Source: Rhodothalassiaceae bacterium (GTDB lineage: Bacteria > Pseudomonadota > Alphaproteobacteria > Sphingomonadales > Rhodothalassiaceae). From it: a DNA stretch of 64,000 nucleotides. Shown here piece by piece: positions 31,287 through 48,201 of this stretch; the first letter of the stretch is position 1, and each line of letters begins with the position of its first letter. Position numbers and translations under genes: made by a program. Location: contig BPKC01000001.1 of the NCBI GenBank assembly GCA_026004935.1, positions 2,765,381 through 2,829,380 on the forward strand. Direction: 5' to 3'. The notes beneath the pieces were generated by a model. It made no database searches, was not told the DNA's origin, and saw only the letters and a program-made list of their open reading frames with translations.

Positions 31287-32243
31287 ATGGACGATGCGGG
31301 CCGTGCCGGGGGTGCGGCCCGGCGGCGGAGGATGGCGCAGGCGGTGATCGGCGTCTTCGATTCGGGCTCGGGCGGATTGACGGTGCTGGCGGCGCTGAAG
31401 GCCGCGCTGCCCGAGCGCGGCTTTCTCTATCTCGGCGACCATCGCCATCAGCCCTACGGCGAGCGGCCCATGGAGGAGGTGGAGGCGCTGACCCGGGCGG
31501 GGGTGGCGCGGCTGTTCGCCGCCGGCTGCCGCCTCGTCGTGCTCGCCTGCAACACCGCGGCCGCGGTGGCGCTGCGCCGGCTGCAGCGGACGTGGCTGCC
31601 GCGGGTCGCGCCCGAGCGGCGGATTCTCGGCGTCCACATCCCCCTGGTCGAGGCGCTCACCGGCCACCCCTGGCGGCCGCCCGGGGAGCGGGTCGCGTGC
31701 GCCGGCGTCCTGCCGCGGACCGGTGAGGCCGTCGTCATCTTCGCGACCCCGACGACCGTCGCAAGCCATGCGTTCGCGCGCGAGATCGCCCGGCACGACC
31801 CGGGCCTGCCGGTGATCGAGCAGCCCTGTCCGGGTCTGGCGCGGGCGATCGAGGCGGGCGCGGCGGATGCCGAGCTGCGCGGGCTTGTCGCCCGCGCCTT
31901 CGAGAACGCGGCCGCGGAGGCCGCCCGGCGCGGCTGGACGATCACCCGCGCCGCGCTGGCCTGCACCCACTATCCCCTGATCGCCGACGTGTTCCGCGCC
32001 GTGCTGCCGGAGCCCGTCGCGATTCTGGACCAGCCGCGGCTCGCGGCGGAAAGTCTCCGCCTGTATCTCGCCCGCCACCCGGAATGCGACGAACCGCCCG
32101 CCGTGCCAGAGGTCCTTCTGCGCACGACGGCGGACGGGCCCCTTGCGGCGCCGCGGGGCTTCGGCGACCCGGGCGCCCGCTTCCTGCCCTGGTGCGGGGA
32201 GCCGGTCGCCGATCGCCCGCCGTCCGTCGCGGGCGTCCGGTGA
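31287..32243 (+). CDS. murI: Glutamate racemase
   Basis: Produces D-glutamate for peptidoglycan. 318 residues, longer than the usual 260-290, with a Pro/Arg-rich C-terminal tail. GVFDSGSGGLTVLAAL near the N-terminus, the first catalytic Cys in VVLACNTAAAVALR, the second in ALACTHYPLIADVF. GAAGG is 8 nt before ATG 31287; the alternative ATG 31332 has AGG directly abutting it, so the longer form is given. Its stop codon is part of a perfect 18-bp palindrome, and a repeat array begins about 70 bp downstream. Confidence 0.92.
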   Translation: MDDAGRAGGAARRRRMAQAVIGVFDSGSGGLTVLAALKAALPERGFLYLGDHRHQPYGERPMEEVEALTRAGVARLFAAGCRLVVLACNTAAAVALRRLQRTWLPRVAPERRILGVHIPLVEALTGHPWRPPGERVACAGVLPRTGEAVVIFATPTTVASHAFAREIARHDPGLPVIEQPCPGLARAIEAGAADAELRGLVARAFENAAAEAARRGWTITRAALACTHYPLIADVFRAVLPEPVAILDQPRLAAESLRLYLARHPECDEPPAVPEVLLRTTADGPLAAPRGFGDPGARFLPWCGEPVADRPPSVAGVR

Positions 32244-32259: not shown

Positions 32260-32312
32260 GGCGGGCGGGCAGGAGCGACGGGCGAACCCATCGGCCGGCG
32301 GCAAGTGTGTGG

Positions 32313-32827
32313 ACCCGCCGGTCAAGCCGGCGGGTGACGAAGAAAAGGTGTCCGCGGGGGGGGAGGCTCGGGCGCGCAGCCGGGTGCGCCGGCTCCTGGG
32401 GTCAAGGACGCGCACCGGCGGTGACGACCTCCCCACCACGTCGTTCGCCGGCTTGACCGGCGAACCCTTCCGGTCATCGGTGATCAGTCATCAGTCTTCA
32501 GACACGGAAGACAAGCCGGCCCGCACCCCACCACGTCGTTCGCCGGCTTGACCGGCGAACCCTTCCGGTCATCGGTGATCAGTCATCAGTCTTCAGACAC
32601 GGAAGACAAGCCGGCGCGCACCCCCCGCGTCGTTCGCCGGCTTGACCGGCGAACCCTTCCGGTCATCGGTGATCAGTCATCAGTCTTCAGACACGGAAGA
32701 CAAGCCGGCGCGCACCCCACCACGTCGTTCGCCGGCTTGACCGGCGAACCCATGAGGCGGTGATGGCAGTCCCGGCGCCGGTGCTTGGGTCCCCTTCCGG
32801 CTGGACCCGCCGGTCAAGCCGGCGGGT
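32313..32827. repeat. REP/BIME-like palindrome array 1 (fills the murI to diiron-gene gap)
   Basis: The 660-bp gap 32244-32903 holds no credible gene but six 23-bp palindromes. Type B (arms ACCCGCCGG and CCGGCGGGT, loop TCAAG) is at 32313-32335 and 32805-32827. Type A (arms GTTCGCCGG and CCGGCGAAC, loop CTTGA) is at 32443-32465, 32538-32560, 32632-32654 and 32727-32749. The two types share the same core read in opposite orientation. The same elements recur at 46705-47601. Not coding: the frames here translate to repetitive Gly/Pro/Ser/Arg-rich strings. Confidence 0.88.
32432..32752. repeat. Tandem 94-95 bp repeat, three full copies plus a partial fourth
   Basis: Units begin near 32432, 32527 and 32621, with a partial copy from 32716. 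Each carries a type A palindrome followed by a conserved stretch containing GGTGATCAGTCATCAGTC and ACACGGAAGACAAGCCGG. The units are almost identical, differing by single bases, so the expansion looks recent. The partial copy diverges after the palindrome (CCCATGAGG instead of CCCTTCCGG). Confidence 0.9.
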
Positions 32828-32903
32828 GACGCTTTCCACCGCGCTCACCGGCAGCTGAGGGGCGATGAACGGCTGCCGCCCGCCGGGGACCGCGACCTGG
32901 CGG

Positions 32904-33974
32904 TCACTCCCCGGCCATCCGCGCGACCTCCTCCACATGGCGGCGGCGGGCGTCGAACTCGGCGGCGATCTCCTCGTCGCGCCTGTTGAGCGCGTCGACA
33001 TCGACATTCGCGTAGTCGAGCACGCCCATCTTGCGATAGGCCTCCTGGACCTTCGGCCCCCACAGGCCGATGTCCTTGACCACCGGCACGATGCGGCTGA
33101 AGAGGTAGTTGCGGAAGATCCGCATGCCCTCGCTTTCGTTCATGTAGGCGACGCATTCGTCCACCGGCAGGCCGTAATGGGCCCAGACCTCCCGCGATTC
33201 GAAGCGGTCGCGCATGAGATAGCAGGCCTCGACGAGAAACTCCTCGCGCTCGGCCCGCTCGGCCTCGGAGAGCTCGGGGTAGTAGTCCCTGAGCGCCAGG
33301 CGGCCGAAGGCGACATGGCGCGCCTCGTCCTCCATCACATAGGCGTTGACCTGCTGGGCCAGCGGATTCTGGGCCTGGTCGCGGATCGTCGCGAAGGCGG
33401 CCAGCGCCAGCCCCTCGATCACCACCTGCATGCCGAGATAGGTCATGTCCCAGCGGCTGTCGGCGAGCACCTGCTCCAGCAGGGTCGCAAGCGGGCCGGT
33501 CATCGGCCAGGCGATGCCGAACTTCTCCAGCAGACGCTTGTAGGCCTCCACATGCCGCGCCTCGTCCACCACCTGGGTTGCGGCATAGAGCTTGGAATCG
33601 AGGTCCGGGACCTGCTGGACGATCTTGGCGGCGCAGAACAGCGCGCCCTGCTCGCCATGCAGGAACTGGGAGATCGTCCAGGCCTGATGGCCGACACGCA
33701 GCGCGATCTTGTCCTTTTCGGGCATGCGCTCGTAGAAGGGCGCACCCTTCAGGGGCATCGTGTCCTCGGGCAGCTCCTGCGGGTTCTCGGGATCGAGCTC
33801 GAGCGACCAGTCGATGCGCTCGGCCGCGTTCCACTGCTTGCGCTTGCCCTTCTCGTAGAGCTGGATCAGGCTCTGGCGGCCGTCGTCGAACCGCCAGTCG
33901 AAGACGGCGTCGATCTCCTCCTTGACCGGCCAGAAGTCCGGCGCCTCGATGGGATAGAGGTCCTTGAGCTGCAT
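32904..33974 (-). CDS. Ferritin-like diiron protein, putative oxygenase/oxidase
   Basis: 356 residues, all-helical. A complete carboxylate-bridged diiron ligand set is visible: Glu108 (FLHGEQGALF), Glu138 and His141 (QVVDEARHVEAY), Glu187 (QVVIEGLALAAF), Glu217 and His220 (VMEDEARHVAFG). This is the E-ExxH-E-ExxH pattern of ribonucleotide-reductase-R2-like, AurF-like and related oxygenases. ATG 33974 has GAGGGAG 10 nt upstream. No ferredoxin, reductase or biosynthetic neighbour suggests a substrate. It is flanked by repeat array 1 downstream and a 392-bp gap upstream. Confidence 0.83.
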   Translation of the reverse strand: MQLKDLYPIEAPDFWPVKEEIDAVFDWRFDDGRQSLIQLYEKGKRKQWNAAERIDWSLELDPENPQELPEDTMPLKGAPFYERMPEKDKIALRVGHQAWTISQFLHGEQGALFCAAKIVQQVPDLDSKLYAATQVVDEARHVEAYKRLLEKFGIAWPMTGPLATLLEQVLADSRWDMTYLGMQVVIEGLALAAFATIRDQAQNPLAQQVNAYVMEDEARHVAFGRLALRDYYPELSEAERAEREEFLVEACYLMRDRFESREVWAHYGLPVDECVAYMNESEGMRIFRNYLFSRIVPVVKDIGLWGPKVQEAYRKMGVLDYANVDVDALNRRDEEIAAEFDARRRHVEEVARMAGE

Positions 33975-34298
33975 CTTCGTCACACTCCCTCGCTGCTCGA
34001 TGCGCACCCGCCCCTCGAACTTGCACGCAGGGCGATCACGGGCGGACGCGGCGATCCCCAAGCCGCCGGCATTCTAACATGGCTCCACTTCCCGCTTCCT
34101 TGACAGTTTCGGGAGTGCCGGCGCGTCGGCGACCCGCAGGTCTTTCCGCCGCCGGACCGGCCCACCTGCACCAACCATTTGAACATAAATCAGAAAAATC
34201 AGCGGCGGCGGCGCACGGTTCCACGGCCGATGCCGCGCGGCACGAAACCACCCGGTTCCGGGGGGATTCGGCCGGCGGTGCACCGCGGTGCCAGCAAG
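33975..34298. other. Gene-free stretch upstream of the diiron gene
   Basis: No coding frame with support. It contains an AT-richer patch around 34170-34200 (TTTGAACATAAATCAG) that is the most likely promoter zone for the minus-strand diiron gene. No riboswitch or RNA gene recognised. Confidence 0.4.
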
Positions 34299-45961: not shown

Positions 45962-46465
45962 TCAGGCCGGTTCCGCGGGGTCGGGCACGTGGGTGTGGGC
46001 GATCAGCATGTCCACGCGCGCACCCGTCTGCGACAGCGGCATGACCAGCACCGAATAGACCAGATACTCCTTGCGCGCCCATCGAAGCGGCAGGTCGAGG
46101 CACATGTAGGGGCGCCGCGTCCGGATCGCCCAGCGGAACCGCTCGATCATGGGCTCCGAACCGGGCATGGTGGAAAAGTCGCGGCCGTGTTCCGGATGCC
46201 CATGGGCGCGCGCGATGTCCGCCCCCGCAAGGCGGACGACGAAGCGCCCCTCCGGCGTGATGTCCATGAGCCCGATCCCCTTGAGATGCCGGCCCATGGA
46301 CGCGGGACTGAACTCGCTCCGGCGCGGCAGCCGCGCCGTGCGGTTGAAAATGTCGAACCACCAGCGCTGCAGCAGCCGCCCTCCTTCCCACGGCACCTCC
46401 GTCGCCTCATCCACGGGAATGAGGGCATCAAGACCCGGATCGGGCGGGGGCCATTCTCCCGGCAT
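45962..46465 (-). CDS. PAS_5-domain protein (copy 2)
   Basis: 167 residues, paralogue of the protein at 30250-30759. Shared blocks: PVDE-x-T-x-VPWEGGRLL-x(2)-WWF, the MGRHL-K/A-GI run, FVVRLAGADI, RTRRPYMCLDLPLRWA and VLVMPLSQTGARVDMLIAH. One PAS-like domain and no output module. ATG 46465 has GAAGGGG 6 nt upstream; the frame is open to 46564. Its upstream side abuts repeat array 2. Confidence 0.82.
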   Translation of the reverse strand: MPGEWPPPDPGLDALIPVDEATEVPWEGGRLLQRWWFDIFNRTARLPRRSEFSPASMGRHLKGIGLMDITPEGRFVVRLAGADIARAHGHPEHGRDFSTMPGSEPMIERFRWAIRTRRPYMCLDLPLRWARKEYLVYSVLVMPLSQTGARVDMLIAHTHVPDPAEPA

Positions 46466-46704
46466 CGATGTCCCCTTCGCACCTCGTGCCGGCCGCTCCT
46501 CGAAGCAACGCGGCGATCCTCCGGCCTCCCGCCTTCCGGTTGTCATTCTAGCATATTCCCCCACGACGCGCGAATCCCGCCGGCTCCTCAGGCGGGATTG
46601 GCCGCCGTCTGCCGCCTCGGCATGTCCTGCGCCGGATCACGGCGCGAAACCGGCCGGCGGCAACGTCACCCCTCGCACCGGTGCTCTGCCCTGCCGCCTG
46701 CTGG
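46466..46704. other. Gene-free flank between PAS_5 copy 2 and repeat array 2
   Basis: No coding frame with support. It has an AT-richer patch near 46545-46560 (TCATTCTAGCATATTC) that could hold the PAS_5 promoter on the minus strand. Confidence 0.35.
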
Positions 46705-47601
46705 ATCCGCCGGTCAAGCCGGCGGATGACGAAGAAAGGGATGGATCCGCCGAACGAGCCGGCAGGTGACGCCCTCCCCAACACGTCGTTCGCCGGCCTG
46801 ACCGGCGAACCCATCGGGCGGGGACGGCAGCTCCGACGGCGGTAATCGGCCCCGCCGTCTGCTGGACCCGCCGATCAAGTCGGCGGGTGACGTGGGAAAA
46901 AGGGCGCCTGCGGGTGACGCACTCCCAATCGCGTCGTTCGCCGACTTGATCGGCGAACCCATCGGGCAGGGACGGCAGCTCCGACGGCGGCAATTGGCCC
47001 CGCCGTCTGCTGGACCCGCCGATCAAGTCGGCGGGTGACGAGGAAAAAATCGAGCCGGCGGGTGACGTTCGGGAGGGGACGACGGCGGGTGACGCACTCC
47101 CAATCGCGTCGTTCGCCGGCTTGACCGGCGAACCCATCGGGCGGGGACGGCAGCTCCGACGGCGGTAATCGGCCCCACCGGCGGCTGGACCCGCCGATCA
47201 AGTCGGCGGGTGACGAGGAAAAAATCGAGCCGGCGGGTGACGTGGGCGAAAGGGCGCCTGCGGGTGACGCACTCCCAATCGCGTCGTTCGCCGGCCTGAC
47301 CGGCGAACCCATCGGGCGGGGACACAATTCCCGACACCGGGGGTTGGCTCTGCCTCCTGCCGGATCCGCCGGTCAAGCCGGCGGATGACGAAGGAAGAGG
47401 GAGCAGGTGGGTGACGACGAGGGGCGGCCGGATCCGCCGATCAAGCCGGCGGGTGACGATGGGTAGGGCGCACTGGCGGGTGGCCCTCTCCTCTCGCGTC
47501 GTTCGCCGGCCTGACCGGCGAACCCATCGGGCGGGGACACAATTCCCGACACCGGGGGTTGGCTCTGCCTCCTGCCGGATCCGCCGGTCAAGCCGGCGTG
47601 G
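46705..47601. repeat. REP/BIME-like palindrome array 2
   Basis: About 900 bp of alternating 23-bp palindromes. Type B copies lie at 46705, 46866, 47014, 47189, 47364, 47432 and 47579, with degenerate ones near 46744 and half copies near 47052. Type A copies lie at 46788, 46936, 47111, 47286 and 47501. Between them are conserved spacers (CCCATCGGGCGGGGACGGCA, CGCACTCCCAATCGCGTC). Variants keep pairing: type B at 46866, 47014 and 47189 has ACCCGCCGA with TCGGCGGGT, and type A at 46936 has GTTCGCCGA with TCGGCGAAC. Same family as the array at 32313-32827. No transposase here. Confidence 0.9.
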
Positions 47602-47646
47602 GACAGGCAAGCGGACCGGCCGATCGACGCCGGAAAGCCCGGCCGC

Positions 47647-48201
47647 TCAGCCCGCCGGCGCCTGGCGGATGCGGGGCAGGAGCTCCGCGAAATTGCAGGG
47701 CCGGCAGCGGCAGTCGAGCTGCCACTTGAGGATGCCCTCCCAGGCGTCCCGGCAGGCGCCGGGGCTGCCGGGCAGCGCGAACACGAGGGTGCCGCGGGCG
47801 AGCCCCGCAAGCGCCCGCGACTGCACCGTGGCCGGCCCGATGCTGCGGTAGGACAGCATCCGGAACAGCTCGCCGAAGCCGGGGATCGGCTTGTCGAAGA
47901 GCGGCTCCAGCACCTCGGGCGTGACGTCGCGCAGGGTGATCCCCGTGCCGCCCGTGGTGATGACCACGTCGACATCTTCGTCGGCAAGCCAGCGGCGCAC
48001 CGCCGTCTCGATCTCCGCGGGTTCGTCACGCACGATGCGCCGGTCGACGAGGCGGTGTCCGGCCGCACGCACCGCCTCGGCCAGCCAGGCCCCCGAGCGG
48101 TCGCTCGTCTGATCGCGGGTGTCCGAGATCGTCAGCACCGCGATCCCGAGGGGCGTGAAGGCGATGCCGTCATCAAGCCGCGGCGTCACGGGTTCCAGCA
48201 C
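47647..48201 (-). CDS. moaB: Molybdenum cofactor biosynthesis protein B
   Basis: 184 residues, MoaB/Mog fold; adenylates or helps process molybdopterin. LGIAVLTISDTRDQTSDRSG at the N-terminus, VDVVITTGGTGITLRDVTPEVLEPLF in the middle (the molybdopterin-binding GGTG), and LARGTLVFALPGSPGACRDAWEGIL near the end. GTG start at 48201 with GGAAGGA about 9 nt upstream. No other moa/moe genes nearby. It ends next to repeat array 2 and follows slt by 18 bp. Confidence 0.92.
   Translation of the reverse strand: MLEPVTPRLDDGIAFTPLGIAVLTISDTRDQTSDRSGAWLAEAVRAAGHRLVDRRIVRDEPAEIETAVRRWLADEDVDVVITTGGTGITLRDVTPEVLEPLFDKPIPGFGELFRMLSYRSIGPATVQSRALAGLARGTLVFALPGSPGACRDAWEGILKWQLDCRCRPCNFAELLPRIRQAPAG

Follow-up and report, generated by a model that had tools for sequence, protein, structure and literature searches.

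CGTC-REPs arranged as BIMEs in a Rhodothalassiaceae genome, and a small GIY-YIG nuclease family associated with such repeats

The CGTC-REP superfamily, which includes the dRS3 and RPE repeats (Di Nocera et al., 2013; PMC3733652), occurs mainly in Alphaproteobacteria and consists of palindromes with a CGTC tag, a stem of 8-9 bp, a loop of 4-5 nt and a CCA tail, which frequently form dimers, heterodimers among them. The first two stem positions were described as "almost invariably" A-T pairs, clusters were called rare, and the superfamily was reported without a dedicated enzyme, no tyrosine transposase gene having been found flanked by CGTC repeats (PMC3733652). GTAG-REPs, in contrast, are linked to a RAYT (TnpAREP), an enzyme of the HUH Y1 type, and an inverted REP doublet, the REPIN, has been described as their replicating unit (PMC3116915).

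The DNA analyzed here, a 64-kb stretch of a Rhodothalassiaceae genome (the window), carries arrays of palindromes that have the tag, stem, loop, tail and dimers of the CGTC-REP superfamily. Nevertheless, they depart from it in a CGCCG stem with ACC or GTT outer arms, where those of the superfamily are mostly AT, and in the presence of at least 660 copies, in arrays. Palindromic REPs, inverted doublet units and, in related genomes, an enzyme gene lying between cognate REPs with which it appears to coevolve are features shared with the GTAG-REP systems, but here the tag is CGTC, the candidate enzyme is a GIY-YIG nuclease instead of an HUH Y1 protein, and the genome has no RAYT. The dRS3/NIME arrays of Neisseria are likewise built of CGTC-1 REPs, and a member of this GIY-YIG family is encoded among the dRS3 copies (L214), although stem and loop are different (ATTCCCGC-gcag) and the host is a betaproteobacterium.

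Palindrome arrays of the window

Twelve palindromes of 23 bp alternate in orientation between a PAS-domain gene (45962-46564, minus strand) and a gene for a molybdopterin-binding, MoaB-like protein (47647-48201, minus strand) (Table 1). Five are of the GTT...AAC kind and seven of the ACC or ATC...GGT or GAT kind, in agreement with the counts, positions and opposite orientations given in a preliminary description of this DNA; two of the seven (47432 and 47579) are imperfect. The core is identical in both kinds and is read on opposite strands, with CGTC on the plus strand in the GTT kind and on the minus strand in the ACC/ATC kind. Brought into one orientation, every copy has a CGTC tag followed by a 9-bp stem, a YYTGA loop and a CCA-like tail, and because all of them share these features the palindromes are CGTC-REPs, arranged as BIMEs. 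Two subtypes have the core CGCCGG...CCGGCG in common and are told apart by their three outermost pairs, ACC or ATC in A and GTT in B. In either subtype the innermost pair, next to the loop, can be G/C or A/T, and mostly both of its sides have changed. Between the full copies, at 46750-47485, there are several half elements, with GCCGGCGGGTGACG or a close variant of it, that resemble truncated A-type REPs.

The second array is located between convergent genes at 31287-32243 (plus strand) and 32904-34061 (minus strand). Within it, three near-identical units of about 95 bp follow one another head-to-tail at 32432-32751, each made up of a single B-type REP plus a stretch of non-REP sequence.

Table 1. 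Positions of CGTC-REPs and arrays in the window
Feature	Position	Strand	Palindrome start	Remarks
Second array, mixed A- and B-type REPs	32310..32831	.
Second array, A-type REPs	32310-32339, 32802-32831	-
Second array, B-type REPs	32439, 32534, 32628, 32723	+
Entire BIME array	46705..47601	.		tandem units of 148 and 175 bp
A-type CGTC-REP	46702..46731	-	46705	ATC/GAT, perfect stem, without B partner
B-type CGTC-REP	46784..46813	+	46788	GTT/AAC, loop CCTGA
A-type CGTC-REP	46863..46892	-	46866	compensated CCGA/TCGG variant; dimer with 46784 across 49 bp
B-type CGTC-REP	46932..46961	+	46936	compensated CCGA/TCGG variant
A-type CGTC-REP	47011..47040	-	47014	compensated variant; dimer with 46932
B-type CGTC-REP	47107..47136	+	47111
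A-type CGTC-REP	47186..47215	-	47189	compensated variant; dimer with 47107
B-type CGTC-REP	47282..47311	+	47286	loop CCTGA
A-type CGTC-REP	47361..47390	-	47364	ATC/GAT, tail CCG; dimer with 47282
A-type CGTC-REP	47429..47458	-	47432	imperfect stem (C.A and G.T, uncompensated)
B-type CGTC-REP	47497..47526	+	47501	loop CCTGA
A-type CGTC-REP	47576..47604	-	47579	right arm truncated and, like the tag, damaged; dimer with 47497

Copies across the genome and pairing of their stems

A strict pattern matched 662 copies in the 2.91-Mb genome (2 contigs, 100% complete), with no match for the reversed-pattern control; the copies are many and dispersed. This number, together with the alternating orientation and the dimer units, bears out the BIME/REP system in an alphaproteobacterium that had been proposed preliminarily, and the nearest relatives of the moaB gene are consistent with such a host. 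A looser, class-wide pattern found 627 copies here and 36 in the runner-up among 337 genomes of the class; elsewhere in the class this frame is found again with other stems, mostly perfectly paired. The copies were characterized in 464 kb of sampled sequence (400 kb of the genome plus the 64-kb window), in which an unpaired tag, CGTC (or TGTC/CCTC), at one end accompanies a 9-bp stem, a 5-nt loop and a CCA, CCT or CCG tail. A third type, C (ATTCGCCGC-GAAA-GCGGCGAAT), has a 4-nt loop. Stem positions 1-2 belong here often to ACC or GTT arms, and type C and the ATC variant agree with the A-T pairs described for the superfamily. REP density reached 14-29 per 20 kb in one region (G000:C1, 1.56-2.0 Mb; L079-L082) and was mostly 0-9 elsewhere; this region lies near the sign change of the sampled GC skew, and thus possibly around the replication terminus.

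Neighboring copies with inward-facing tails are 48-51 bp apart, nearly always 49. The 55 sampled dimers of this kind include 30 B-A and 22 C-A pairs, together 52 heterodimers where random pairing would give about half (binomial p 4e-14), and a single A-A pair. The 49-bp spacers keep their length, whereas their sequences are merely 58% identical, and no conserved RNA fold was found in them. In two further genomes (G005 and G020), dimers with other stems likewise consist of one copy with an ATT arm and one with ACC or ACT. The inverted doublet with its fixed-length spacer matches the REPIN, and the repeating unit of the arrays is a heterodimer in which B (or C) and A are separated by 49 bp, with tags outward and tails inward.

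The preliminary description had also drawn attention to compensated stem changes from CCGG/CCGG to CCGA/TCGG at 46866, 46936, 47014 and 47189. These are real, with both arms changed together, but the stem at 47432 contains one C.A mismatch and one G.T pair that are not compensated. Among the 17 copies of the window, 98.8% of the stem cells are paired, four pairs are altered on both sides, and the covariation score, obtained from few distinct sequences, was 0.42 against 0.22 after shuffling (0 of 500 shuffles as high); moreover, the window contains 16 perfect tagged hairpins against 0-1 in block shuffles. In the sampled sequence, stems were perfect in 121 of 142 anchored copies and imperfect in 21, yet 12 of the 13 multi-copy classes are perfect, against 3 of the 22 singletons. 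It follows that the amplified types are the perfect ones and that later point mutations are usually uncompensated. The suggestion that the folded form is selected or the arms are copied fits amplification of perfect hairpins; selection on individual resident copies would be a further supposition.

A GIY-YIG nuclease family beside CGTC-REPs

A distinct family of GIY-YIG nucleases of about 95 aa is specifically associated with inverted CGTC-REPs. A set of 20 genomes with REPs contained 25 small GIY-YIG loci, and 16 of these had CGTC-REPs directly at the gene, typically in the order REP> gene <REP; the corresponding figure was 16 of 70 in a class-wide set of small GIY-YIG loci ordered by score; many of the top-scoring PF01541 matches in the class belong to another small GIY-YIG group without REPs. 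A profile (A2) built from 13 REP-flanked proteins divided all small GIY-YIG loci into two groups, and no locus scored between 70 and 90 against it. In the first sets a REP was adjacent at 63 of 93 loci of the A2 family and at 0 of 44 other small GIY-YIG genes (p 3e-16), a contrast that is partly by construction since the profile derives from REP-flanked proteins. A new phylum-wide set, in which 26 of 28 loci had contributed no protein to the profile, gave adjacent REPs at 19 of the 28, including 13 of 16 outside the class. Over all sets, 82 of the 121 loci of the family had an adjacent REP (77 of 116 when identical ones are counted once), 54 of them on both sides and inverted, and about a third lacked one by the pattern scan used. 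Counted in 100-bp bins around the gene, REPs numbered 52 and 59 in the two bins next to it and about 0-2 in most bins farther than 500 bp.

The two REPs flanking a gene had a common stem in 30 of 43 pairs, against 7% when re-paired, with 25 distinct stems, and their loop length was equal in all 43 (54% when re-paired). Moreover, loop type (4 or 5 nt) follows the nuclease tree, which has few columns and is poorly resolved: 9 changes were required, against a mean of 19 and a minimum of 13 in 300 shuffles, and when a single locus represented each combination of host family and loop type there were 7 changes against 12.9, 1 of 300 shuffles being equally low. Of the 116 family proteins, 115-116 have the residues Y8, Y19, R29, H33, E66 and N85, and this conservation makes the nucleases look active as judged from their sequences; matched by spacing, these residues presumably correspond to the catalytic residues of I-TevI. 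The single-domain GIY-YIG proteins of UPF0213 (1zg2, 1ywl) share the domain and the length of about 95 aa, with a profile match at E 2e-9, but the REP-linked family is separated from them by the score gap mentioned above and by a C-terminal motif, W-K-x-x-L-I-E-x-x-N-P-x-W-x-D-L. Plasmid p1 of Planktothrix (L225) has a GIY-YIG gene that is free of REPs and is flanked by an MmeI-type gene and DISARM drmA. Two other partners were considered and rejected, namely DUF559 (PF04480), with a nearby REP at about 1 of 22 loci at most, and UvrC as a GIY-YIG protein (0 of 5 in REP genomes). No GIY-YIG/REP link was found in the collection of open-access papers searched, one of which contains both terms but simply tabulates the two genes for a pangenome; the collection is without preprints and the majority of subscription journals, and priority is uncertain.

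Filled and empty sites show that related genomes differ in the presence of the nuclease gene; REP-flanked examples of the enzyme are L219 of Shinella and WP_014249537 of Azospirillum lipoferum. In Azospirillum lipoferum 4B it lies between sufB and sufC with a REP dimer on each side, while sufB-sufC is free of it in A. ramasamyi, A. oryzae, strain B510 and A. thermophilum. A REP-flanked copy occurs in Shinella WSC3-e and HZN7 and is missing from H4-D48, and the gene is present in three strains of Sphingobium and absent from TomTYG72. In Sphingobium TomTYG74 (L262, compared with L222), a single chimeric hairpin with CGTC tags at both ends occupies the place where relatives have REP-nuclease-REP, and could have been left by excision or formed when the two REPs fused. 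The flanks of the empty sites have diverged, so no target duplication or precise junction can be read from them.

As for the lineage of the window, the family nuclease gene was found neither in its genome, where UvrC is the only GIY-YIG protein, nor in its one congener, and the sampled parts of the genome gave no relict fragment at E<1. The REPs of this genome therefore look orphaned, and their link to the nuclease is indirect. Another member of the same family of bacteria (G005) has a nuclease gene in a CGTC-REP array, in which a unit of about 580 bp with REP dimers is tandemly duplicated (L313, 1867-3241) and the duplicated units encode identical proteins. Besides, nuclease genes lie beside REPs with CGCCG stems like those of the window at three loci of the same order (L235, L244 and L117).

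Possible modes of spread

We give about even chances to the general proposal that CGTC-REPs are mobile elements and owe their movement to a GIY-YIG nuclease of a single domain, dedicated to them and encoded within an inverted pair of REPs. Regarding the window, the REP dimers are probably non-autonomous relatives of such a REP-nuclease-REP element, mobilized by a nuclease that was afterwards lost here. The enzyme would recognize a CGTC-REP most likely by its tag, loop and foldability rather than by its stem sequence, and would cut there, after which repair would copy the REP or dimer into new sites; as only foldable copies would spread, stem variants would appear compensated. Since a GIY-YIG nuclease consisting of one domain does not amount to a transposase, the repair-based copying is an assumed step, and we infer the cutting, the copying, and the past activity and loss of the nuclease in this lineage. 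With the nuclease gone, local tandem duplication and recombination would enlarge the arrays. The simplest reading is that the REPs of the window are an orphaned population left after nuclease loss, in arrays enlarged by local duplication; spread in trans by an unrecognized enzyme is conceivable.

GIY-YIG domains are known in homing endonucleases, and the gene might instead parasitize REPs by recognizing CGTC-REPs and inserting into dimers, the REPs themselves spreading by another route. The association data fit this equally, and in A. lipoferum and G005 the gene does sit between REP dimers, but the spread of the REPs and the usually identical stems on both flanks, across 25 distinct stems, would then be left unexplained, and we regard this alternative as rather unlikely. 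Host processes alone (template switching at hairpins, slippage and gene conversion) could account for the 148- and 175-bp tandem units and the near-identical units of about 95 bp in the window, in a genome without a Y1 or family nuclease gene, the nuclease association being a by-product of REP-rich intergenic sites. However, REPs are almost absent beyond 500 bp from the nuclease genes, they do not adjoin the DUF559, UvrC, Y1 or other GIY genes of the same genomes, and hundreds of dispersed identical copies need dispersal, which makes this explanation very unlikely.

In Escherichia coli and Pseudomonas, REPs are cut in single-stranded form and moved by a RAYT, a Y1 tyrosine transposase. The preliminary description proposed a search for a RAYT gene, and the BIME layout and REPIN-like dimers do resemble GTAG-REP systems. 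Nonetheless, PF01797 (Y1 transposase) had no match in the genome of the window although positive controls matched, Y1 genes occur in just 4 of 20 other CGTC-REP genomes, and the 23 Y1 loci examined in genomes and records with REPs or GIY genes all lack an adjoining CGTC-REP. The single Y1 match of a gonococcal record was not beside a dRS3 copy; the literature may yet hold a RAYT-dRS3 link in Neisseria. Considering also that the tag is CGTC, not GTAG, and that tyrosine transposase genes were never CGTC-flanked in the earlier survey (Di Nocera et al., 2013; PMC3733652), a RAYT is rejected as mobilizer for this genome and unsupported elsewhere, and the idea as a whole is highly improbable.

CGTC-REPs are one of the two great REP superfamilies, and their mode of spread has been open since 2013; the association described here points to a protein of about 95 residues as their candidate enzyme. 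If the nuclease-driven reading is true, it would represent a second, independently evolved partnership between REPs and an enzyme, with a GIY-YIG protein as a bacterial mobilizer of folded DNA, and would account for the free change of stem sequences alongside constant pairing, tag and loop. A single mechanism, analogous to that of RAYTs and their REPs, would then also cover dRS3, RPE and many repeats of Alphaproteobacteria.
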